Positions 25,929 to 47,445 of a DNA stretch of 47,445 nt are shown here, in pieces (positions within the stretch are counted from its first letter, which is position 1; every line of letters begins with the position of its first letter). The stretch is from the NCBI GenBank assembly GCA_015711755.1, contig JACVIY010000005.1, positions 1 to 47,445 of the forward strand, in the 5' to 3' direction. The translations under genes were made by a program, and so were the position numbers. The notes beneath the pieces were generated by a model, which was not told where the DNA came from, did not search any database, and saw nothing but the letters and a program-made list of their open reading frames with translations. Source of the DNA: Candidatus Geothermincola secundus (GTDB lineage Bacteria > Actinomycetota > Geothermincolia > Geothermincolales > Geothermincolaceae).

Positions 25929-28109
25929 ATGAGCAGGATAATCGCAACCGCGGCTATCAAGGGCGCCTATAAAGAGGTCGCCGAGGCGAAAAGGATGTTC
26001 AACGAGACCCTGGAGGCGGCGGGGGCCACCGCCAAGGTGGAGTTCCCCAACACCGCCTACTACCTGCCCATCATCTACGGTCTTTCCGGCATCAAGGTGG
26101 AGAAGGTGGAGGACATGGCCAAGGTACTGGAGCTGTGCGATCAGCTTCTCCCCCCCATGCCCAAGGCCCGCCACTGGGTCCCCTATCTGGGGCATACCCT
26201 GGACGCGGGCATCGCCACCCTCTTCGCCGGGGAGATCATCGAGGGATGCAAATACGTCACCAACCCCCCCGTGGACGACGTGTGGCTGGGGGCGGCTGAC
26301 GACGTCATCATGCGGGAGCGCGGGGTGGAGTTCGTGGACGGCACCGCCCCCGGGTTCTGCGCCCTCACCGGCCTGGCCTCCAGCGCGGAGATGGCCGAGA
26401 AGATCGTCATCGAGCTGCTGGAGAAGAACCTTTACGTGTGGATGAGCGGCCACATCGACGGCAAGACCATCACCGAGCAGCTGCTGGAGCGGGAGCGGCA
26501 GCTGGGTTGGGACACCCGCACCGTTCCCTACGGCAAGGAGATGTCCTCCGCGGTGTACTCCCTGGGGTTCGCCGCCCGGGCGGCCATGAGCTTCGGCGGC
26601 GCCCAGCCCGGCGATTTCAGGAAAGTGCTCCGCTACAACAAGAACCGCATCTTCGCCTTCGTGCTGGCCCTGGATTACGTGGACGAGCAGAAATACGCGT
26701 ACGCGGCGGGGGCCATCAACTACGGATTCCCCACCATCGCCAACACCCCCATACCTCAGATCTTGCCCACCGGCGTGTGCACCTATGAGCACGTCGTGTC
26801 CAACGTGCCCGAGGAGGAGATCGTCCAGAAATGCGTGGAGGTGCGCGGCCTGAAGATCCAGATCACCAAGGTCCCCATCCCCATGGCCTACGGCCCCGCC
26901 TTCGAGGGCGAGCGCATCGGCAAGGCGGATATGTACGTGCAGTTCGGCGGGAACATCACCCCCGCCTTCGAGTACGTGCGCATGCGGGAGATGGACGAGG
27001 TCACCGACGGCAAGATAGAGGTGATCGGTCCGGAGATCGACGACGTCGAGGAAGGCAGCGCCCTGCCCCTGGGCATCGTGGTGGAGGTGGCCGGCCGCAA
27101 GATGCAGGAGGATTTCGAGTCCATCCTGGAGCGCCAGTGCCATCACCTCATCAACGGGGCGGAGGGCATCTGGCACATGGGCCAGCGCGACATCGTCTGG
27201 ACCCGCATCAGCAAAAAGGCCAAGGAGAAGGGCTTCAAGATCCGCCACTACGGCGAGATCCTCCACGCCAAGCTGCTCTCCGATTTCCCCGCCATCGTGG
27301 ACAAGGTGCAGGTGACCATCTACACCGACCTGGCCGAGGTGGAAAAGTGGCAGGAGATCGCCCGACAGGCCTACCGCTATCGCGACGAGAAGACCGCGGG
27401 CATGACCGACGAGTCGGTGGACACCTTCTATTCCTGCACCCTCTGCCAGTCCTTCGCCCCCACCCACGTCTGCGTGATCACTCCCGAGCGGCTGGGTCTG
27501 TGCGGCGCCTACAACTGGCTGGACGGCAAGGCCGCCTACGAGATAGACCCCACCGGGCCCAACCAGCCCATCAAGAAGGGCGAGCCCATCGATGAGGTCA
27601 AGGGGCAGTGGAAGAACGTCAACGAGTTCGTGAAAGAGAAATCAGGGGGAGTCTCCGAGGCCTTCAACGCTTATACGATGATGGAGGACCCCATGACCTC
27701 CTGCGGATGCTTCGAATGCATAGTGGCCTTCCTGCCGCTCTGCAACGGGGTGATGATCGTCAACCGCGAGTACACCGGCATGACCCCCTGCGGCATGACC
27801 TTCTCCACCTTGGCCGGATCGGTGGGCGGCGGGGCCCAGACCCCCGGCTTCATCGGCATCGGCAAGGTCTACATCACCTCCAAGAAGTTCATCAGCGCCG
27901 ACGGCGGCTTCCAGCGCATAGTGTGGATGCCCAAGGCGCTGAAGGAGATGCTGCACGAACAGCTGGTGAAGCGCTGCGAGGAGATCGGCGACCCCGACTT
28001 CATCAACAAGATCGCCGACGAGGACGTGGGGGTGGACGAGGAGACCCTGCTCCCCTGGCTGGAGGAGAAGGGCCATCCCGCCCTGACCATGGATCCCATG
28101 CTGGCCTGA
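25929..28109 (+). CDS. acsB: Acetyl-CoA synthase, CODH/ACS alpha subunit
   Basis: A 726-residue enzyme that joins a methyl group, CO and CoA at the A-cluster. Ligands are readable: Cys503, Cys506, Cys515 and Cys525 for the 4Fe-4S cubane, and the Cys592-Gly-Cys594 motif (TSCGCFEC) for the distal nickel. Each is offset by exactly three from Moorella thermoacetica (506, 509, 518, 528, 595, 597). The N-terminal CooS-interacting domain is present, so this is the full bacterial form and not the shorter archaeal one. ATG 25929 lies directly after the cooS stop. Confidence 0.98.
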   Translation: MSRIIATAAIKGAYKEVAEAKRMFNETLEAAGATAKVEFPNTAYYLPIIYGLSGIKVEKVEDMAKVLELCDQLLPPMPKARHWVPYLGHTLDAGIATLFAGEIIEGCKYVTNPPVDDVWLGAADDVIMRERGVEFVDGTAPGFCALTGLASSAEMAEKIVIELLEKNLYVWMSGHIDGKTITEQLLERERQLGWDTRTVPYGKEMSSAVYSLGFAARAAMSFGGAQPGDFRKVLRYNKNRIFAFVLALDYVDEQKYAYAAGAINYGFPTIANTPIPQILPTGVCTYEHVVSNVPEEEIVQKCVEVRGLKIQITKVPIPMAYGPAFEGERIGKADMYVQFGGNITPAFEYVRMREMDEVTDGKIEVIGPEIDDVEEGSALPLGIVVEVAGRKMQEDFESILERQCHHLINGAEGIWHMGQRDIVWTRISKKAKEKGFKIRHYGEILHAKLLSDFPAIVDKVQVTIYTDLAEVEKWQEIARQAYRYRDEKTAGMTDESVDTFYSCTLCQSFAPTHVCVITPERLGLCGAYNWLDGKAAYEIDPTGPNQPIKKGEPIDEVKGQWKNVNEFVKEKSGGVSEAFNAYTMMEDPMTSCGCFECIVAFLPLCNGVMIVNREYTGMTPCGMTFSTLAGSVGGGAQTPGFIGIGKVYITSKKFISADGGFQRIVWMPKALKEMLHEQLVKRCEEIGDPDFINKIADEDVGVDEETLLPWLEEKGHPALTMDPMLA

Positions 28110-38222: not shown

Positions 38223-38549
38223 CCCATCGGGGTCAGCCGCCCCACATCCTCATCTGAGCGAATCGGCGCTAGGCCCGGGACCGCGCGCATCTTGAGCCGC
38301 CATGGGCTATCTCTTCGTCGAGGAGGCGCCGGTTCTCCTTTTGGCGGATGAGTCCTTGAGCGATCCTTCGGAAACGGTCCTGGGAGATCGGCCGCGGGAA
38401 AAAGACGGCATAACCTTTTATTTCTTCACAGCATGCCCTGGAGGTGTTAGAATATGCGCATTATTGCTGCTTGAGTAGCTGCTTCCGACCTTTGAGGTTC
38501 GCTTGGCGTTATTTGGCTTTTGAGGATGAGTCGGATCATAGGAGAAGGT
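38223..38549. other. Intergenic region upstream of antiporter operon
   Basis: A 327-base stretch between the acyl-CoA-synthetase-like gene and mrpE. It becomes more A+T-rich towards its right end, where the mrp promoter candidate lies (38425-38453). I see no convincing gene or RNA in the remainder; a 58-codon open frame at 38302-38478 has no good ribosome-binding site. Confidence 0.5.
38425..38453 (+). promoter_or_regulatory. Promoter candidate for mrp operon
   Basis: TTCACA (38425-38430), one base from the TTGACA consensus, a 17-base spacer and TAGAAT (38448-38453) lie about 95 bases upstream of the chosen mrpE start. Confidence 0.6.
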
Positions 38550-39074
38550 ATGCAGCAGGGGACGCGGTCAAGTACCGGCAAAACGCTGGGGTTCATCCTC
38601 CTTTTCATCTTCTGGCTCATCCTCAGCGCGTCCTTGATGGCAGCGGACCTGGTGCTGGGGGCCATCTCCTCCGCGGTGGCGGCCTGTTTCGCCGTGCTGG
38701 CACTGGGACGCGCCCTGGACAACGGCTTCACGCTGCCGGTTCTGCTGCGCCTCCCCTTTTTCGGTGCGGCGCTGGTCTGGGAGATAATCAAGGCCAATAT
38801 CGACGTGGCCATGATCATCCTGAACCCCCACCTCCCGATCGACCCGAGGGTAACGTCTTACCGCACATTTCTGAGAGGCGATCTGCAGAAGACCTTCTTC
38901 GCCGACTCCATCACCCTGACCCCGGGGACGGTGACCCTGGAGGTGGATGGGGATATCCTCCGTGTGCACTGCCTTGCCGCCCACCACGAGGAAGGCCTGC
39001 ACGAGGGAAGACTGGAACGCATGGTCGCCTGGCTCTTCGGAGTCTGTAATCAAGAGGGGATCACCTCGAGATGA
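38550..39074 (+). CDS. mrpE: Mrp cation/proton antiporter subunit E
   Basis: A 174-residue membrane protein. Two closely spaced N-terminal hydrophobic helices (LGFILLFIFWLILSASLMAADLVLGAISSAVAACFAVLALG) and a third (LRLPFFGAALVWEIIKANIDVAMIIL) precede a cytosolic domain. That domain has the MrpE signature LTPGTVTLEVDGDILRVHCL. I choose ATG 38550 with AGGAGAAGG upstream; ATG 38526 and TTG 38520 are open but have poorly spaced sites. It is the first gene of the antiporter operon, with a 73-base gap to mrpF. Confidence 0.85.
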   Translation: MQQGTRSSTGKTLGFILLFIFWLILSASLMAADLVLGAISSAVAACFAVLALGRALDNGFTLPVLLRLPFFGAALVWEIIKANIDVAMIILNPHLPIDPRVTSYRTFLRGDLQKTFFADSITLTPGTVTLEVDGDILRVHCLAAHHEEGLHEGRLERMVAWLFGVCNQEGITSR

Positions 39075-39147
39075 GGCTTCGGATGGATGAGCGGGATGCC
39101 CGCACCTGGGCTGCCGCCACAGCGGATAAGGGGAGCTGGATAAGGAT

Positions 39148-39426
39148 ATGAGGGATTATCTATTGGGAGTGGCTCTGGTCATAGCCATAAACGCCTTTAT
39201 CTGCATATATAGGGCGGTGATCGGCCCCACCGTGCAGGACCGCCTGCTGGCGGTGAACGTCATCGGGACCAAGGCGCTCATCGTGGTGGTGCTGGTCACC
39301 TTCATCTTCCACGAGAGCTTCTTCCTCGATGTGGCCATGGTATACGCCTTGTTGAACATGGTGGTTACCGTGGTGCTCTCGCGCTATCTGGAGACCGAGG
39401 GATGGAAAGGGAGGGAGGCGAGGTGA
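39148..39426 (+). CDS. mrpF: Mrp antiporter subunit F
   Basis: A 92-residue protein with three transmembrane helices (YLLGVALVIAINAFICIYRAV; ALIVVVLVTFIFH; FFLDVAMVYALLNMVVTVVLS). The MrpF signature IGPTVQDRLLAVNVIGTKA lies between helices 1 and 2. Size is typical. ATG 39148 follows GATAAGGAT. The stop overlaps the GTG of mrpG. Confidence 0.9.
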   Translation: MRDYLLGVALVIAINAFICIYRAVIGPTVQDRLLAVNVIGTKALIVVVLVTFIFHESFFLDVAMVYALLNMVVTVVLSRYLETEGWKGREAR

Positions 39427-39761
39427 GCGCGAGGGAGATCGTCGCCGGGGCTTTCTGCGCTGTGGGGGCGCTGTTCTTCGTCATCGGGACCACCGGCCTG
39501 CTGCGCATGCCCGATTTCTTCAGCCGCCTGCACCCATCCACCAAGTGCGACACATTGGGTGGATGCTCGGTGCTGGTGGGGATGATGGTGTATTCCGGAT
39601 GGACCTGGGAGATACCGCGGCTGCTGGTAATCGCGGGATTCCTGCTGATCTACAGCGCCACCTGCGGCCACGCCATGGGTCGCTCCGCCTTCCTGCGGGG
39701 CATGGCGGTGTGGAGGAGGGCTCCGTCTTCCGGGGACGGGGAAGGGGTGGAGCGGGCATGA
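39423..39761 (+). CDS. mrpG: Mrp antiporter subunit G
   Basis: A 112-residue three-helix membrane protein with the MrpG signature GLLRMPDFFSRLHPSTKCDTLG after helix 1. GTG 39423 overlaps the mrpF stop (GTGA) and has GGAGGGAGGCG upstream. An in-frame ATG at 39402 is possible but lies inside mrpF without a site. Its own stop overlaps the next start (ATGA). Confidence 0.9.
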   Translation: MSAREIVAGAFCAVGALFFVIGTTGLLRMPDFFSRLHPSTKCDTLGGCSVLVGMMVYSGWTWEIPRLLVIAGFLLIYSATCGHAMGRSAFLRGMAVWRRAPSSGDGEGVERA

Positions 39762-40057
39762 GCGACGCCCTCAGCCTTGTTTTGCTGGCCCTGCTGGTGG
39801 TCACCGCTTTGGCCGCCACGTTCTCCAGAGACCTGCTGGCGGCGGTGATCGTCTTCAGCGGATACAGCTTGGTCATGGCCCTGCTCTGGCAGCGCCTGCA
39901 GGCCCCCGATCTGGCGCTGACCGAGGCGGCGGTGGGAGCGGGGGTGACAACCGTGCTCTTCGTGACGGCCATATTCAAGACCCAGCGCATGGAGGAGGAG
40001 GGCGGGGATCGCCACCGCAGGGGAGGAGCAAACGAAAAGGAGAGCGTCGAGAAATGA
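39758..40057 (+). CDS. DUF4040/MbhD-like antiporter subunit
   Basis: A 99-residue membrane protein with three predicted helices and the conserved segment GYSLVMALLWQRLQAPDLALTEAAVGAGVTTVLFVTAIF. This is the DUF4040 domain, which forms part of MrpA's C-terminus in standard Mrp systems and is separate (MbhD) in Mbh-type complexes. ATG 39758 overlaps the mrpG stop, and AGGGGTGGAG lies upstream. Its stop overlaps the next ATG. Confidence 0.85.
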   Translation: MSDALSLVLLALLVVTALAATFSRDLLAAVIVFSGYSLVMALLWQRLQAPDLALTEAAVGAGVTTVLFVTAIFKTQRMEEEGGDRHRRGGANEKESVEK

Positions 40058-40803
40058 AGAAGGTCGTCTCCCTTTGCTTCATCGGGGCTCTCGGCGTGCT
40101 GCTGCTGATGCTGGTCTCCTCTATGCCCCGCATGGGCGACCCGGGGTCGCCCACCAATAGGCGGGTGGTGGACCGGTACCTGGAGAAAGCCGAGGAGGAG
40201 ACGGGAACGGAGAACGTGATAACCGGGGTCATACTCAACTACCGCGGTTATGACACCATGGGGGAAGTCACCGTCATCTTCACCGGATTGGCGGCGGTGC
40301 TGGCGGTCCTGGGGAGGGAGAAGAGGGGCAGGGTGTATGCCTACCCCGACCGCTCCCCCGTCCGCTCCAGCATCATAGTGCGCAGCGCGGCCGGGTTCCT
40401 GCTTCCCTTCATCGCCCTTTTCTCCCTTTACACCGTTCTGCACGGGGAGATATCGCCGGGAGGCGGTTTCCAGGGAGGCGCGGTGATGGCGGCGGGCATG
40501 TTCCTCTTCGCCGCGGCTTTCGGGTTGTGGAAGGCGGGGAGGACGGTGCCGCCCCGCCTGCGCTTCGCGGTGGAGGGCGCGGCCCCCATCACCTTCTTCC
40601 TGGTGGGGGTGGCCGGGCTGTTGGGCGGAGGCGAGTTCCTCGCCTACATGCTCCCCAGGGTCTCGGCGGGTTTGCAGCCGGCCCTGCGCACCTGGTTGAC
40701 CCTGCTGGTGGAAGGAGGGATCGGGGCGGGCGGAGCCATGATCTTCATCTCCGTGCTCATGGCCCTGGCGCGCGAGGAGGTCGGCGGTGGGCAGGCTGCT
40801 TGA
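40054..40803 (+). CDS. mrpB: MbhE-MrpB fusion antiporter subunit
   Basis: A 249-residue protein. Residues 1-90 resemble MbhE (N-terminal helix; TENVITGVILNYRGYDTMGEVTVIFTGLAAVLAVL). Residues 105-245 are the MrpB/MnhB domain (SIIVRSAAGFLLPFIALFSLY; HGEISPGGGFQGGAVMAAG). Mbh-type systems carry these as separate MbhE and MbhF proteins. ATG 40054 overlaps the previous stop (ATGA). Its end overlaps mrpC by 17 bases. Confidence 0.87.
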   Translation: MKKVVSLCFIGALGVLLLMLVSSMPRMGDPGSPTNRRVVDRYLEKAEEETGTENVITGVILNYRGYDTMGEVTVIFTGLAAVLAVLGREKRGRVYAYPDRSPVRSSIIVRSAAGFLLPFIALFSLYTVLHGEISPGGGFQGGAVMAAGMFLFAAAFGLWKAGRTVPPRLRFAVEGAAPITFFLVGVAGLLGGGEFLAYMLPRVSAGLQPALRTWLTLLVEGGIGAGGAMIFISVLMALAREEVGGGQAA

Positions 40804-41182
40804 CAACTACCACTACGCTGTGGCGGCGGTGCTCTTCTGCACGGGCTTCTATTCGGTGATCATGCGCCCCAACATAATCAAGAAGATAATCGGGCTCAAC
40901 ATCATGGAGACCTCCGTTTTCCTCCTCCTGGTTTCCCTGGGCTGGAAGGAAGGGGGCATCGCCCCCATACATGCCGGCGGAGCGGAGGCGGCGTCCATGG
41001 TCAACCCCCTGCCTCAGGCCCTCATCCTCACGGGTATCGTGGTGGCCGTGAGCACCACCGCGGTGGCCTTGTCCCTGGTGATCCTGCTCTACCGCCAGTA
41101 CGGAACCCTCGACGTGGACCGCCTGATGAGGGAAGAGGAGCTGGAGGTGCCCGCCGCGGGGCCGGAAGGCGGGGAGGGGTGA
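40787..41182 (+). CDS. mrpC: Mrp antiporter subunit C (NuoK-like)
   Basis: A 131-residue protein with three helices, homologous to NuoK/MrpC: YHYAVAAVLFCTGFYSVIMRPNIIKKIIGLNIMETSVFLLLV and NPLPQALILTGIVVAVSTTAVALSLVILLYRQYGT cover residues 8-51 and 71-105. NPLPQALILTGIVVA is the diagnostic string. GTG 40787 lies inside the end of mrpB with GAGGAGG upstream. The C-terminal acidic tail is variable. Confidence 0.9.
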   Translation: MGRLLDNYHYAVAAVLFCTGFYSVIMRPNIIKKIIGLNIMETSVFLLLVSLGWKEGGIAPIHAGGAEAASMVNPLPQALILTGIVVAVSTTAVALSLVILLYRQYGTLDVDRLMREEELEVPAAGPEGGEG

Positions 41183-42669
41183 TGGGAGCTTACCGCCACT
41201 TCCCTATCTTGATAATCACGGTGCCCCTGGTCACTGCCGTGCTTATGCCCGCCCTCTCCCACCGCAGGGAGAGGTTGTGCATGCCCCTGGCCGCCGCTGC
41301 CCTGAGCGCGTCAACGGTGCTCACCTTTCTGCTCTACAGGGTGATCAGGCCGGCGGCGGACTGCTTCCTCTCGTATCGGCTGGGGGGATGGGAGCCTCCC
41401 TGGGGCATCGAGATAAAAGTGGATTTCGCCGGGCTCTTCATGCTCTCGGTAATATGCTCCGTCAGCCTGCTCTGCCTGGTGTATTCCCGAAAATATATAT
41501 CCAAAGAGGTCGAACCGGGAAAGGCCTTCGCCTACTACTCTCTTTTTCTGCTCCTGTCCGCGGCCATGCTCGGCTTCACCGCCACCGGCGACGTTTTCAA
41601 CATGTTCGTCTTCATGGAGATCCTTGCGCTTTCCTCATACGCGCTGGTGGCGGTCACCGGGCGGCGCGACGCGGTGAGGGCCGCATTCAAATACCTGCTC
41701 ATGGGGGCACCCTCCAGCATAATGGTGCTGTTGGCCATCGCCTTGCTGTATTCTTCGACGGGTTCCCTGAACATGGCCCATCTAAAGGAGCTCTTGGCCG
41801 AGGGGGCCTATTCCCGAGTGGTCTTCGCCTCCCTGGTCTTCATGATCATGGGATTCGGGGTCAAAGCGGCTCTCTTTCCCCTGCACGGCTGGCTTCCCGA
41901 TGCCCATTCCATAGCGCCATCCCCCATAAGCGCCATGCTCTCGGGGCTGGTGGTCGAGGTGGCCGTCTTCGCCCTGCTGCGGCTCTTCTTCACGGTTTAC
42001 GGGGCCGCTTCGGGGGCGGTCTCCGGCACTTCGGAAGCCCTGGGGGTCACGGCTGCCGCGGGAGTACTTTTCGGCGGGGTGATGGCCGTACTGCAGAAAG
42101 ACTTCAAGATGATGATCGCCTATTCCACCGTGAGCCACATCGGCTACATCGCATTGGGCATATCAATCATGAACGAACAGGCGCTTACCGGAGCCCTGTA
42201 TCATCTTCTGGACCATGGGCTGGCCAAGGGCTGCTTCTTCCTCTGCGCCGGTGCCTTCATCTACGAGAGGGACTACCGGCGGATCGAGCAGCTTAAAGGA
42301 GCGTCGAGGCGCATGCCCCTGACCTGCGCGGCCTTTGCCGTGGCCGCTCTCTCGGTCATCGGCATACCCCCCACCTCAGGGTTCATCAGCAAATGGTATC
42401 TCATTTGGGGGAGCGTGGCCGGAGGAAAGTACCTCTACGCGGCGGTATATCTCATCGGAAGCATCCTGGCCGCGACCTACTGCCTGAGGGTGATCTACTA
42501 CATGTTTTTCTTGCCCCCGCAGCCGGGAACCTGGGAGGGCGGCGGTGAGGCCCCCGTTCTCATGCTCGTTCCCGCCTGGGTTCTTTCTCTGGGGACCCTG
42601 CTCATGGGGGCGCTCTCCTTCGTGATAATCGGCCGGGTACAAGAGGCGGCGGGGCTTCTGCTGAGATGA
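41179..42669 (+). CDS. mrpD: Mrp antiporter subunit D (NuoM/N-like), first copy
   Basis: A 496-residue membrane protein of the proton-antiporter-M family with about 14 predicted helices. Key strings are VFMEILALSSYALVAVTG with the conserved Glu of helix 5, FGVKAALFPLHGWLPDAHS with the helix 7/8 Lys and His, LQKDFKMMIAYSTVSHIGYI, and the helix 12 Lys in PPTSGFISKWYLI. GTG 41179 overlaps the mrpC stop, and an ATG immediately follows. It is expected to move cations or protons as part of an Mrp/Mbh-type complex. Confidence 0.9.
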   Translation: MMGAYRHFPILIITVPLVTAVLMPALSHRRERLCMPLAAAALSASTVLTFLLYRVIRPAADCFLSYRLGGWEPPWGIEIKVDFAGLFMLSVICSVSLLCLVYSRKYISKEVEPGKAFAYYSLFLLLSAAMLGFTATGDVFNMFVFMEILALSSYALVAVTGRRDAVRAAFKYLLMGAPSSIMVLLAIALLYSSTGSLNMAHLKELLAEGAYSRVVFASLVFMIMGFGVKAALFPLHGWLPDAHSIAPSPISAMLSGLVVEVAVFALLRLFFTVYGAASGAVSGTSEALGVTAAAGVLFGGVMAVLQKDFKMMIAYSTVSHIGYIALGISIMNEQALTGALYHLLDHGLAKGCFFLCAGAFIYERDYRRIEQLKGASRRMPLTCAAFAVAALSVIGIPPTSGFISKWYLIWGSVAGGKYLYAAVYLIGSILAATYCLRVIYYMFFLPPQPGTWEGGGEAPVLMLVPAWVLSLGTLLMGALSFVIIGRVQEAAGLLLR

Positions 42670-42741: not shown

Positions 42742-44238
42742 ATGGAGAAGAACTCGGTGATGCCGCTGGTGGCCATGCTCTTACCCTGGTTATCCCTGGC
42801 GGTGATAATCGCCATCCCCAAACAGCGGCGCGCCCTCCGGTTATGGCTATGCGTCCTGGGCAGCGCAGCCGCCTTCGCGGCGGTGTTGAGCATGGCCGGT
42901 GACGCGCTCGACGGCAGGGTGCTGACCATGAACATCGCCTCGGTGGTGGAGGGAATAGAGATCACTCTGCGCATGGACACCCTGGGATATTACTTCGCCC
43001 TGGTCATCTCGTTCATCTGGCTGTTGGCTACCGTCTATTCCGTTCGCTACATAGACCACAAGGAGAACCGCTTCTTCGCCTTCTTCGCCCTCTGCGAATC
43101 CTTCCTGATGGGCTGCGCATTCTCCGCCAACATGTTCACCTACTTCATCTTCTACGAGATGATGACCTTCGGCTCCTACCCGCTGATAGTGCACGAGGAG
43201 ACGGCCATAGCCCGCCGCGCCGCCTATAAGTACCTGGTGTACGCGATATGCGCGGGAACCGTGCTCTTCTTCGCCATAGTCGCTCATTATTTCTGGGGCG
43301 GGGGTGATCTGAGCTTCGGCCATTGGGAGGGGGTCATGAGCTTGGAGACCGCCTCCCGAGCTGCCCTCATGACCGTTTTCTTCACCTATTTGGCTGGTTT
43401 CGGGGTAAAGGCGGCCATAATGCCTCTGCACGGCTGGGTGCCCGATGCTCACCCGGCCGCTCCCTCGCCAGCCAGCGCGGTTCTCTCGGGCGTCATCCTC
43501 AAGGCCGGGGCCTTCGGCATCATGAGGGTGGTGTTCAATGTCTTCGGCGTCGATCTCCTCAGGGAACTCAAGGCGTACATACCCTTCGCGGTGCTGGCCT
43601 CCGTCACCATCGTCATGGCCTCGGTCTTCGCCCTCACCCAGGACAACCTCAAGCGCCGGCTGGCCTATTCCTCCATCGGGCAGGTCTCGTATATACTGCT
43701 CGGCCTGGCCCTCCTGGCCCATGACGGTGAGTTGGGGGGGATCATGCACCTGGCTCACCATGCCCTGATGAAGGGGTGCCTGTTCCTCTGTGCCGGCATC
43801 ATCCTGGTGAAGACGGGCAAGAAGAACATAAGCGAGATGAAGGGGATAGGATATCAGCTGCCCCTGACCATGATCTGCTTCACGATATGCGCGCTGGCCA
43901 TGATGGGGACCCCTCCCAGCGTCGGATTCATCAGCAAATGGCTTCTGGGGAGCGGGGCCCTGCAGTCGGGCAATCCCGTATATCTCATCGTGCTTCTGGT
44001 GAGCGCCCTTCTGAACGCCGCGTATTTCCTTCCCATCGTCTACACCGCCTTTTTTCAATGGGAGGGCGAGGAAGAGGAGCATCCCAAGCTGCAGTGGGGT
44101 AGGGAGACCGACCTGGAGATGCTGGTCCCGGTGGTGGTCCTGGCCGTGCTGGTGTTGGTCGTGGGCATCTGGGTGAAGGTGCCCGGCTTCCCCCACAGTT
44201 TCGCCGATGTGGTGGTGAAGCTGATCTTCCCGCATTGA
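42742..44238 (+). CDS. Antiporter subunit, second MrpD/NuoM-like copy
   Basis: A 498-residue paralogue of the preceding subunit with the same fold: FIFYEMMTFGSYPLIVH (helix 5 Glu), FGVKAAIMPLHGWVPDAHPAAPSPASAVLSG, LTQDNLKRRLAYSSIGQVSY, and GTPPSVGFISKWLLGS. The full set of proton-channel Glu/Lys/His residues is present, so it is probably active. ATG 42742 follows AGGAGGGAG. A 72-base gap separates it from mrpD. Confidence 0.88.
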   Translation: MEKNSVMPLVAMLLPWLSLAVIIAIPKQRRALRLWLCVLGSAAAFAAVLSMAGDALDGRVLTMNIASVVEGIEITLRMDTLGYYFALVISFIWLLATVYSVRYIDHKENRFFAFFALCESFLMGCAFSANMFTYFIFYEMMTFGSYPLIVHEETAIARRAAYKYLVYAICAGTVLFFAIVAHYFWGGGDLSFGHWEGVMSLETASRAALMTVFFTYLAGFGVKAAIMPLHGWVPDAHPAAPSPASAVLSGVILKAGAFGIMRVVFNVFGVDLLRELKAYIPFAVLASVTIVMASVFALTQDNLKRRLAYSSIGQVSYILLGLALLAHDGELGGIMHLAHHALMKGCLFLCAGIILVKTGKKNISEMKGIGYQLPLTMICFTICALAMMGTPPSVGFISKWLLGSGALQSGNPVYLIVLLVSALLNAAYFLPIVYTAFFQWEGEEEEHPKLQWGRETDLEMLVPVVVLAVLVLVVGIWVKVPGFPHSFADVVVKLIFPH

Positions 44239-44343: not shown

Positions 44344-46533
44344 GTGAGCGGACACGCCGCCTCCGCCGCAGCGGCTGCCTCCTCGACCCTGCCCCCGCTG
44401 GCCCTCCTGCTGCCCTCTCTGGGAGCGGCCGCGGCGGCATGGGCGGGGGAGAGGAGGCCGCGGGTCAGGGGATGGGCGGCGGTGCTGTCCACCGGCGCCG
44501 CCTTCGGGGTCGTGCTGGCCTTGTTGGTGAGGGTGCTGGATGGGGGCGCGGTGTCCTTCCATCTCGGGCTACTGGACCTGGGCGGATCCTTTCTGCTGGA
44601 TCTGGGGGTGGACGCGGTGGGAGCGTTCTTCGGGCTGTTCGCCTCCATACTCTGGTTCGCGGCCTCATTTCACTGCCTCCGCTATCTGGAGCACGAGGAG
44701 CGGCGCACTCGCTTCTACCTCTTCATGCTGCTCACCGAGACGGCCACCCTCGGGGTCTTCTTCGTGCAGGATTTCTTCAGCCTCTTCGTTTTCTTCGAGG
44801 CCATGGGCCTTCTCGCCTACATGCTGGTGATCCACAACGAGTCGGAGAAGGCGCGGGCGGCGGCGAGGAAATATCTGGCCATGACGGTGGTGGGCGGGTT
44901 GAGCTTGCTGGGGGGCATATGGCTCTTCCTCTATTACAGCGGCGGAGTGGCCTTTTCTCCTTCCGCGGAGAGCGCTTGGACGACCGGGCCGGTGAAGGCG
45001 CTGGCTCTGGTTTTCCTGCTGGCGGGATTCGGGGTGAAAGCGGGCATGGTACCGCTTCACGTATGGCTGCCCGACGCCCACCCGGCCGCTCCCTCCCCCG
45101 CCAGCGCCCTGCTCTCGGGGGTGATGATAAAGGCGGGCGCTTACGGCATCATCAGGACCGCTCTGACCTTTCTCTCCCAGCCGGCTTCCCACGGGATGGA
45201 GGGCGGCGGCCACGCGGTGCTGGGAAGGGGGGCCCTATCCCTGATCGCCTCGGGGCACGGAGCGGGGGGCGAGGCGGCCGCGGGGCATGCCGCCTCGGGC
45301 ATGACCGGCGTACAGGCGCTGGGCTTCGCGGTCATCTGGCTGGGCATTGCGACCATGTTCACGGGGATGCTGCTGGCCCTGGTTCAAAGCGATGTGAAGA
45401 GGACCCTGGCGTATTCCAGCGTGAGCCAGATGGGATACATATTGCTGGGCGCGGGGTGCCTTTCCTTCCTGGGAGCCGAGGGATCCATGGGCATGGGCGG
45501 CTTCCTCTATCACGTCATCAACCATGCCTTCTTCAAGGGCTGCTTCTTCCTCGCGGCGGGATCGTTGCTGTTCCGCTCTCATGAGCTGGACATGTACAGG
45601 ATGGGGGGGCTGTGGCGGAAGATGCCGCTTACCTGCCTGTGTTGGTGCCTGGCGGCCCTGGGGATCATGGGGATCCCCCTGCTCAACGGCTTCGTCTCCA
45701 AGACGCTGCTGCATCATGCGGTGGTGGAGGCCCATCACCTGGCAGGGGAATCCCATCTCTGGGCGTCAGGGTGGATAAAACTGGCGGAAATACTCTTCAT
45801 CGTCACCAGCGGCGGCACCATCGCCTACATAAGCAAGATGACCTATTATGTGTTCTTCGCACGACCGACGGAAGGAGGACATCACCAAGGGGATTTGAGG
45901 GAAGCTCCCGCCTGGATGGTGGTGGGCACCTCCCTGTTGGCGCTGGGCGTCCTCTTCAACGGGCTTCTCCCGGGGGTGATGCTCAGGAAGCTGGTGACTC
46001 CGGTGCTATCCTCGGTGCCGGGGCTGGACCAGCACGGGGTTGAGCATCTGGCGCATATGGCCGTTTTCAGCTGGGCCAACCTTAAGGAGGTCCTGCTGCC
46101 TCTGCTTATCGGGGCCGCTCTCTTCACCTTGGGAGCGCGCAGGGAACTCTTCCGCTTGAAGAGGGTGCGCCTGGACCTCTTCCGCCTGCGGCTGCCGTCC
46201 TGGATGGGGGTGGACTGGTGGTACCTGCATGCGGCGAGAGCTTCCCTGGCTTTCCTGTACATCGGCCGGAGAGTATATGGGGATGCGGAGGATGGCCTGG
46301 TAAAGACGGCGAGATCCGTTGCTTCCCGCCTGGTGCGACTGGTGCGCGTGGACATGAAGCGCCTGCTCTGGTACAGGCCGATGGAGGCGGCAAGCGGACT
46401 GTGCGGGGAGGTCTGGACGGCTTTGCGGCGGCGCGCGCTGCCCGCCGTAAGGGAGTATCAGGGAGACCTGGCCATGGGGGCACTGGCCCTGGCGGTGGCG
46501 CTCACCCTTTTCCTTATAATGAGATTGTTGTAG
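44344..46533 (+). CDS. Antiporter subunit, NuoL/MrpA-like with long C-terminal extension
   Basis: A 729-residue membrane protein. The N-terminal ~560 residues carry the antiporter domain: FVFFEAMGLLAYMLVIH, FGVKAGMVPLHVWLPDAHPAAPSPASALLSG, VQSDVKRTLAYSSVSQMGY, and IPLLNGFVSKTLLHH. Residues about 280-322 are a Gly/Ala/His-rich insertion (HGMEGGGHAVLGRG; SGHGAGGEAAAGH). After residue ~598 comes an amphipathic basic region ending in a single helix (LAMGALALAVALTLFLIMRLL), reminiscent of NuoL's lateral helix and anchor. GTG 44344 has GAGGATGCGG upstream. It is likely the third ion-translocating subunit of the complex. Confidence 0.87.
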   Translation: MSGHAASAAAAASSTLPPLALLLPSLGAAAAAWAGERRPRVRGWAAVLSTGAAFGVVLALLVRVLDGGAVSFHLGLLDLGGSFLLDLGVDAVGAFFGLFASILWFAASFHCLRYLEHEERRTRFYLFMLLTETATLGVFFVQDFFSLFVFFEAMGLLAYMLVIHNESEKARAAARKYLAMTVVGGLSLLGGIWLFLYYSGGVAFSPSAESAWTTGPVKALALVFLLAGFGVKAGMVPLHVWLPDAHPAAPSPASALLSGVMIKAGAYGIIRTALTFLSQPASHGMEGGGHAVLGRGALSLIASGHGAGGEAAAGHAASGMTGVQALGFAVIWLGIATMFTGMLLALVQSDVKRTLAYSSVSQMGYILLGAGCLSFLGAEGSMGMGGFLYHVINHAFFKGCFFLAAGSLLFRSHELDMYRMGGLWRKMPLTCLCWCLAALGIMGIPLLNGFVSKTLLHHAVVEAHHLAGESHLWASGWIKLAEILFIVTSGGTIAYISKMTYYVFFARPTEGGHHQGDLREAPAWMVVGTSLLALGVLFNGLLPGVMLRKLVTPVLSSVPGLDQHGVEHLAHMAVFSWANLKEVLLPLLIGAALFTLGARRELFRLKRVRLDLFRLRLPSWMGVDWWYLHAARASLAFLYIGRRVYGDAEDGLVKTARSVASRLVRLVRVDMKRLLWYRPMEAASGLCGEVWTALRRRALPAVREYQGDLAMGALALAVALTLFLIMRLL

Positions 46534-46640
46534 GAGATGAAGACTGCGACTGGGCGGTCGGCCGTCCCGCAGGCCAATCACCGGCAGGGGCGGCTCGGCT
46601 ACGAGATAATCTGGAGCTACAGGAGGAAGTCCTGGCGGCG

Positions 46641-47033
46641 ATGAGCGGAGCACAGAAGGACCTGCTGGCAACCCTGGTGGCGTTGGCCGGGGCCGCTGGG
46701 GTGATCCTGTACGCCGCTTCATCCGAACTGTTCGACCTCAAGCTGTTCAAGTTCGATCCCACGCGGATGCGTTGGCCCCAGGAGGCGCGCATAGAACATT
46801 GGTACGCCGGATTGGCCAGGAGATGGTTCGATTTCCTGTTCAAAGGAGGTTGGAGATACGCCAGCACCAAGAAATCCGCGAAGGTCGGCATGAAACGGGG
46901 ATTCCGCGATCTCCGCAGGCTGATGCGGAAGAGAATGCCGGAGGAATTCCGGCGCATGAACCGGGACATGGCTTTGGGAGCGCTGGTCCTTCTGCTGATG
47001 GCGGTGGCGTTCCTTCTCCTTAAGTTGCTCTGA
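46641..47033 (+). CDS. Membrane protein homologous to tail of the preceding antiporter
   Basis: A 130-residue protein with an N-terminal helix (LLATLVALAGAAGVILYAA), a basic amphipathic middle and a C-terminal helix (MALGALVLLLMAVAFLLLKLL). It aligns by eye with the last ~130 residues of the preceding 729-residue subunit. Matching anchors are ELFDLKLFKFD versus ELFRLKRVRLD, then HWYAGLARR versus WWYLHAARA, then DMALGALVLL versus DLAMGALALA. It thus looks like a detached copy of that tail. ATG 46641 has AGGAGGAAG about 12 bases upstream. No outside family is recognised; a structural role in the antiporter complex is inferred. Confidence 0.7.
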   Translation: MSGAQKDLLATLVALAGAAGVILYAASSELFDLKLFKFDPTRMRWPQEARIEHWYAGLARRWFDFLFKGGWRYASTKKSAKVGMKRGFRDLRRLMRKRMPEEFRRMNRDMALGALVLLLMAVAFLLLKLL

Positions 47034-47053: not shown

Positions 47054-47323
47054 ATGTTGTTGATGGCGCGAGGCGACTTCAAGTCTTCCGCGTTGCGCTT
47101 CGTCCTGGTCGCGTTGACCGCCGCCGTTCTCATGTGGGGCGGCATCGCCTGGGCGGCTGAGGGAGAGGGTGGGGCCTCTGGAGGCGGCTGGAAGATAGTA
47201 GTGGTCCTGGCCCTCTTCTGGCTGGTGATCATCGCGGCCATCCTCCTCAACGTCTACCGCATCAGGCGCCGCGAGCGCAAAGAGGAGGAAGCCGGCGTGG
47301 AGTTCAAGGGAAAGGAGCTCTGA
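47054..47323 (+). CDS. Small membrane protein, antiporter-associated
   Basis: An 89-residue protein with an N-terminal signal-like helix ending in AWAAEG (possible signal-peptidase site after AWA), a Gly-rich linker, and one transmembrane helix (IVVVLALFWLVIIAAILLNVY). A strongly charged cytosolic tail (RIRRRERKEEE) follows. GAGGTG precedes ATG 47054 at good spacing; the gene lies 20 bases after the previous one. I do not recognise a family. Membership in the antiporter operon suggests an accessory subunit. Confidence 0.65.
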   Translation: MLLMARGDFKSSALRFVLVALTAAVLMWGGIAWAAEGEGGASGGGWKIVVVLALFWLVIIAAILLNVYRIRRRERKEEEAGVEFKGKEL

Positions 47324-47325
47324 TC

Positions 47326-47445
47326 CTGGGAGAGCGGTCTCCCCGCGAAGCCGGACGTTACCGCGAACGCCTCTACCGCCTGGAAACGGAAGCGCGCGGG
47401 TTGGTGTCTTTCCGCGTCCGATGGATGGAGAGCGACCTGCTGGTA
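47326..47445 (+). CDS. 5' part of a gene running off the window, UPF0280-like
   Basis: From about 47326 one frame is open to the edge and reads like protein: GRYRERLYRLETEARG then LVSFRVRWMESDLLV. This resembles the N-terminus of UPF0280 proteins, an ApbE-like family of unknown function found in methanogens and other anaerobes, where an aromatic/Arg-rich stretch precedes a S-F-x-V and a (E/T)-(S/T)-D-L motif. The start codon is unclear (CTG 47326 or a start overlapping the previous stop). AAAGGAG lies at 47311-47317. Confidence 0.4.
   Translation, partial: MGERSPREAGRYRERLYRLETEARGLVSFRVRWMESDLLV

Follow-up and report, generated by a model that had tools for sequence, protein, structure and literature searches.

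Directly downstream of the gene for an MrpA/NuoL-like antiporter subunit (T), we found a small gene (X) whose product, on the evidence of pairwise and profile comparisons, is homologous along its full length to the C-terminal tail of T, which consists of transmembrane helix 15 (TM15), a surface helix and TM16. X is a genuine gene that is conserved and evolves under purifying selection. We consider it probable that the X protein is a structural subunit of an Mrp-type antiporter, in which it would form a second, detached lateral helix strapping the antiporter-like subunits. Both genes lie in a 47,445-nucleotide stretch of DNA from Candidatus Geothermincola secundus, which we call the window (Table 1).

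Table 1. Features of the antiporter operon in the window, with predicted parts of T and X.
Feature	Position	Strand	Basis
MrpE (38520), MrpF (39148) and MrpG-position protein (39402)	38520..39761	+	PF01899, PF04066; MrpG by position
MbhD	39758-40057	+	PF13244/PF20501/PF04039 scan of 39758..40803
MbhE-MnhB	40054-40803	+	PF13244/PF20501/PF04039 scan of 39758..40803
MrpC / NuoK-like subunit	40787..41182	+	PF00420
D, MrpD-like antiporter subunit	41179..42669	+	PF00361, E 5e-68
D', second MrpD-like antiporter subunit	42742..44238	+	PF00361, E 1e-55
T, MrpA/NuoL-like third antiporter subunit, 729 aa	44344..46533	+	PF00361; own lateral-helix tail
T tail homologous to X	46072..46527	+	AlphaFold2, HMM alignment to MrpA
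X, 130 aa, predicted TM - surface helix - TM, separate polypeptide	46641..47033	+	T-tail homologue
X first TM helix (predicted), residues 3-27, TM15 counterpart	46647..46721	+	AlphaFold2, hydrophobicity, profile alignment
X surface-helix region (predicted), residues 48-107	46782..46961	+	helix 48-67, GG break, helix from 71
X last TM helix (predicted anchor), residues 108-129, TM16 counterpart	46962..47027	+	profile alignment, AlphaFold2, controls
89-aa membrane protein behind X	47054..47323	+	no family above cut-off

Gene X and the C-terminal tail of T

A preliminary description of the window had proposed that X mirrors the C-terminal tail of the NuoL-like subunit, and our searches bear this out. 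BLASTP matches X to T with an E-value of 4e-5 across 63 amino acids, and in a search of its own whole genome the T tail (E = 1.8e-4) is the sole match apart from X. The profile-profile alignment on which the claim had been made to depend was significant: with profiles built from 17 orthologues each (Neff about 2), hhalign aligned X and the T tail over 123 of 131 columns with a probability of 99.1% and E = 1.6e-18, leaving a single 27-column gap mid-way. Because transmembrane helices inflate profile scores, we ran reversed and shuffled controls. The real score of 110 compares with 14.5 (E 0.15) for the reversed T profile and with 22.5 (E 0.006) for the best of 100 block-preserving shuffles. Sub-segments of X also match the T tail separately (middle, E 1e-9; last helix, E 3e-11), and in genome G001 residues 15-130 of X match the adjoining T tail in a direct comparison (E = 5.5e-11). 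The reading frames and motifs listed in the description are all present in the window–ELF-R-LK and ELF-D-LK as forms of ELF-x-LK, WY-x4-R in both proteins, and DLAMGALALA and DMALGALVLL in the final helices. Its starting point for the block, position 46139, has to be moved, as the homology in T begins at about 46066, in TM15.

X adjoins T on its downstream side at all 17 loci that make up our X/T set (16 genomes of the order Geothermincolales, window included). The loci that carry a title come from Candidatus Geothermincola, Candidatus Solincola and other actinomycetotal MAGs. The gap from T to X, measured to the start of homology, ranges from 48 to 305 nt. Between close pairs of X genes dN/dS is mostly 0.07-0.2, with a maximum of 0.41, and six positions (P46, W54, Y55, N107, R108 and D109) are invariant in X. 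The ATG of X in the window has AGGAGGAAG just ahead of it. A scan of X against Pfam and NCBIfam gave no match, and sequence searches found no relatives of X in the PDB. One genome (G016) carries the operon twice, with a separate X in both copies (L037 and L038). In the window, a 34-codon ORF (46537-46643) lies between T and X, its stop overlapping the X start codon (ATGA); this arrangement may reflect translational coupling or chance.

AlphaFold2 predicts helices at residues 3-27, 48-67 and 71-129 of X (mean pLDDT 66.5), the end part of the last being the anchor, and in the T tail it predicts TM15 at 577-597, helices at 623-674 and 680-703, and TM16 at 706-728 (pLDDT about 50). From these helices, X would be a TM15 - surface helix - TM16 unit without the antiporter, a topology that we infer from the model together with hydrophobicity. 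The characterization of X as a free lateral-helix and anchor protein in the preliminary description agrees with this conserved, predicted layout and with the purifying selection. The stretch 40-108 of X has a net charge of +15, which fits a location on the cytoplasmic side, and the surface-helix region is the part that varies among relatives, in steps of about 25 residues. Foldseek returned no match for the X model, whose confidence is low (pLDDT 66.5). The best fold match of T is MrpA (7qru_A), and in the profile alignment TM15 and 'gvdywy' of T pair with TM15 and 'LNFFYD'/'LNWFYD' of MrpA; TM15 and the FY segment are the only parts through which the T tail aligns with MrpA.

Origin of X and lengths of the surface helices

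The X sequences form one clade with support of 100/100. When the T-core tree is rooted outside the class, f4 and f5, two families of the class that have no X, branch first, followed by G002 (family f2, also without X) and then by all the X-bearing genomes. A single origin of X before the split between f1 and f3 is well supported by these sequences, and X may have been lost in f2. Among the T tails, the point where X branches off is a polytomy with long branches. Of the tandem partial duplication suggested in the preliminary description, the homology and the tandem position hold up, but the T-tail polytomy does not place the duplication within this lineage. It is plausible that X was derived from T within this order. 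The system would also illustrate how part of a core subunit can become an accessory subunit.

To compare surface helices we took the distance between the conserved WY and the D that precedes the last helix, adding 2 to the X values for a common end point; this measure was picked post hoc, with the data already seen. In the order, the T tails mostly measure 82 residues, the exceptions being 55 in G001 and 107 in G014; in the class they measure 81, and 108 in G022; that of G002 measures 129. X mostly measures 55, with 80 in G006 and G015 and 105 in G001. The steps between these lengths are about 26 residues, and all significant internal repeats have a lag of 25-27 or 50: 25 in X of G006/G015 and in T of G014 (p about 0.04, uncorrected), 27 in T of G022, 50 in X of G001, and 26 in tandem copies in G246, a member of a different family of the phylum. 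Together these repeats amount to about five independent events. The profile of the ordinary 55-residue X has no periodicity at lag 26. The T tails of G246 (L124:8699-9457 and L125:758-2869) carry tandem 26-residue repeats (GKVLDRLVDGVASAGQKASGIAAYVD / MRLVDKAINGVAGLGQKTSKAANLFD ...) and appear to differ by one repeat copy; a 253-aa match in this genome that looked like a standalone protein is really T interrupted by a contig end.

We put forward, tentatively, that the lateral element is a modular ruler of ~26-residue units (~39 Å each if helical), repeatedly gained or lost in T and X, and that Geothermincolales divide the rail between two proteins able to exchange length. In G001 (L043:1494-4276) the T helix is cut to 55 while X has grown to 105 through a 50-residue duplication, as if T and X could, in this one case, trade length or substitute for one another. 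With 100 degrees of turn per residue, the helix phase survives a step of 25 but is lost with 26 or 27, so that a module of helix plus kink would fit better than a phase-keeping one. The lengths of X and T do not add up to a constant, as relatives in the class have a T of 81 and no X. A strict ruler throughout the phylum was also rejected, because tails in f12 measure 110-114 and those in two further lineages 293 and 351, the latter two exceeding what a straight rail allows. In G014 and G022 the T helix is longer, with no change in the three antiporter subunits. Four antiporter-like subunits occur in a row in G182 (L120:2414-9560) and G128 (L127:7929-16014), where the last such subunits have 887 and 1000 aa and a very long tail (about 293 in G182).

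An Mrp-type operon and the possible role of X

In order, the operon comprises MrpE, F, G, MbhD, MbhE-MnhB, C, D, D', T, X and the 89-aa membrane protein, and so brings together a Mrp-type subunit set (PF01899, PF04066, PF04039, PF00420 and three copies of PF00361, with MrpG assigned by position). MbhD and MbhE-MnhB are the counterparts of what comes after TM16 in MrpA, and are separate genes here. The three PF00361 proteins are the only ones in the 83%-complete genome. PF00146 (NuoH type) was found neither in this genome nor in any of the 18 genomes of the order that were searched, while 11 of 14 control genomes were positive. From the three PF00361 proteins and the lack of PF00146, the operon looks, by its gene content, like a stand-alone (redox-less) Mrp-type cation/proton antiporter and not part of a hydrogenase or complex I; a redox partner (complex I or a group 4 hydrogenase) was rejected on the same absence of PF00146 from the genome and the order. 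The 89-aa protein may belong to the operon; locus L032 has a 90-aa ORF at the equivalent site. In open-access full texts we found nothing relevant on the antiporters of these organisms, nor on Mrp operons that carry mrpD three times.

Several other features were seen around these operons. CODH/ACS-type genes lie upstream in the window, among them 25929-28109, which by eye we take to be an AcsB-like protein. An open frame at 47361-47445 runs into the contig end and looks, by eye, similar to the UPF0280 (ApbE-like) family; in G002 a similar protein sits behind T (L119:1255-2118). In G011 (L036:5926-7737), G015 (L044:1033-2844) and G006 (L045:11293-13104), D' is extended at its C-terminus by a domain of about 95 aa, which we take by eye to resemble an SdrD/Cna-B-type surface domain (VSGHVYEDENGNGIYDDDDPGVAGV), odd in an antiporter subunit.

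In the role that we favor, X would descend from a copy of the C-terminal tail (TM15 - lateral helix - TM16) that an MrpA/NuoL-like subunit carries, would join a redox-less Mrp-type complex with three antiporter-like subunits, and would clamp some of these subunits together; being homologous to the lateral-helix tail, it should act as a second strap. The lateral helix of MBS, along with TMH16, keeps two antiporter-like subunits joined, and its length varies with the number of such subunits (PMC7684303). Truncation of NuoL makes complex I fragile, and pumping falls when 6-7 residues are inserted at a single site of the lateral helix (PMC3274701). The homology with its controls, the synteny at 17 of 17 loci, the low dN/dS, the Mrp operon, the absence of PF00146, the predicted helix layout of X and the single case of G001 all argue for a strap. 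Against it, the X model is of low confidence and has no Foldseek match, T retains its own tail, and f4, f5 and G002 manage without X, so X would be dispensable to the machine in general. Whether the lateral helix serves as a coupling rod or as a mere strap is debated for the relatives of complex I. A detachable copy of the strap, with a natural series of helix lengths in near-constant steps, could test between the two while leaving the pumping subunits untouched.

The full-length strap that T already has in most genomes, with X coming on top of it, gives some room to the rather doubtful alternative that X links two copies of the complex, or links the row of antiporters to the E/F/G/B module or some other partner, instead of strapping D, D' and T inside a single complex; the HL of MbsH' is part of the MBS dimer contact (PMC7684303). 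What X keeps best, however, are its last helix and the start of its surface helix, the parts that in T would be expected to touch antiporter subunits. It is unlikely that X is instead an assembly or stability factor, present non-stoichiometrically and only temporarily at the strap site during biogenesis: nothing hints at a transient role and X stands next to T at all 17 loci of the order, even though it shares the operon, is missing from relatives with the same machine, and is homologous to a part of T that would be expected to join the subunits last. A chance likeness of two proteins built as TM - basic loop - TM, or a degenerating remnant of a duplicated T, is highly improbable despite the low complexity of transmembrane helices and the small profile diversity (Neff about 2), for the reversed and shuffled controls fail, the middle of X matches on its own, the six positions of X are invariant, and dN/dS is well below 1; the controls reject a chance or compositional similarity, and dN/dS rejects a pseudogene.

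Comparison with known lateral-helix subunits

Free lateral-helix subunits as such are already known. The preliminary description had stated that no standalone version was described, but MbhI of the Pyrococcus furiosus MBH is a separate subunit bearing the lateral helix HL (PMC7684303). Like X as its layout is predicted, MbhI (PDB 6CFW) is a small lateral-helix subunit beside an antiporter-like subunit. It differs in having two TM helices and Loop 1 before HL, where X has one TM helix (residues 3-27, from the model and hydrophobicity), and in linking the hydrogenase arm, whereas X has no NuoH-type partner (PF00146 in 0 of 18 genomes of the order). Searching the 17-sequence X profile against all PDB chains to E 10 found no 6CFW chain, a search that has little power when the TM protein is short. 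On these grounds–the single TM before the helix, the lack of a 6CFW match and the lack of a NuoH/hydrogenase arm–orthology of X to MbhI is not supported.

The tails of MrpA, NuoL and MbsH' have the element order TM15 - HL - TM16, as in X, but there the strap is fused to the antiporter core, whereas X would be a free second copy without PF00361. The Mrp complexes of Bacillus and Anoxybacillus (7QRU, 6Z16) share subunits A-G with this operon and differ in gene packing: they have two antiporter-like subunits (A and D) rather than three, the MbhD/MbhE-like parts are fused behind TM16 of MrpA, and X is lacking. In open-access full texts we found no description of a free strap beside a subunit that keeps its own, nor of strap lengths in ~26-residue steps. 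MBH has one strap, while here a fused strap and, in X, a putative free strap occur together. What is new here is that the surface-helix lengths change in steps of ~26 residues.
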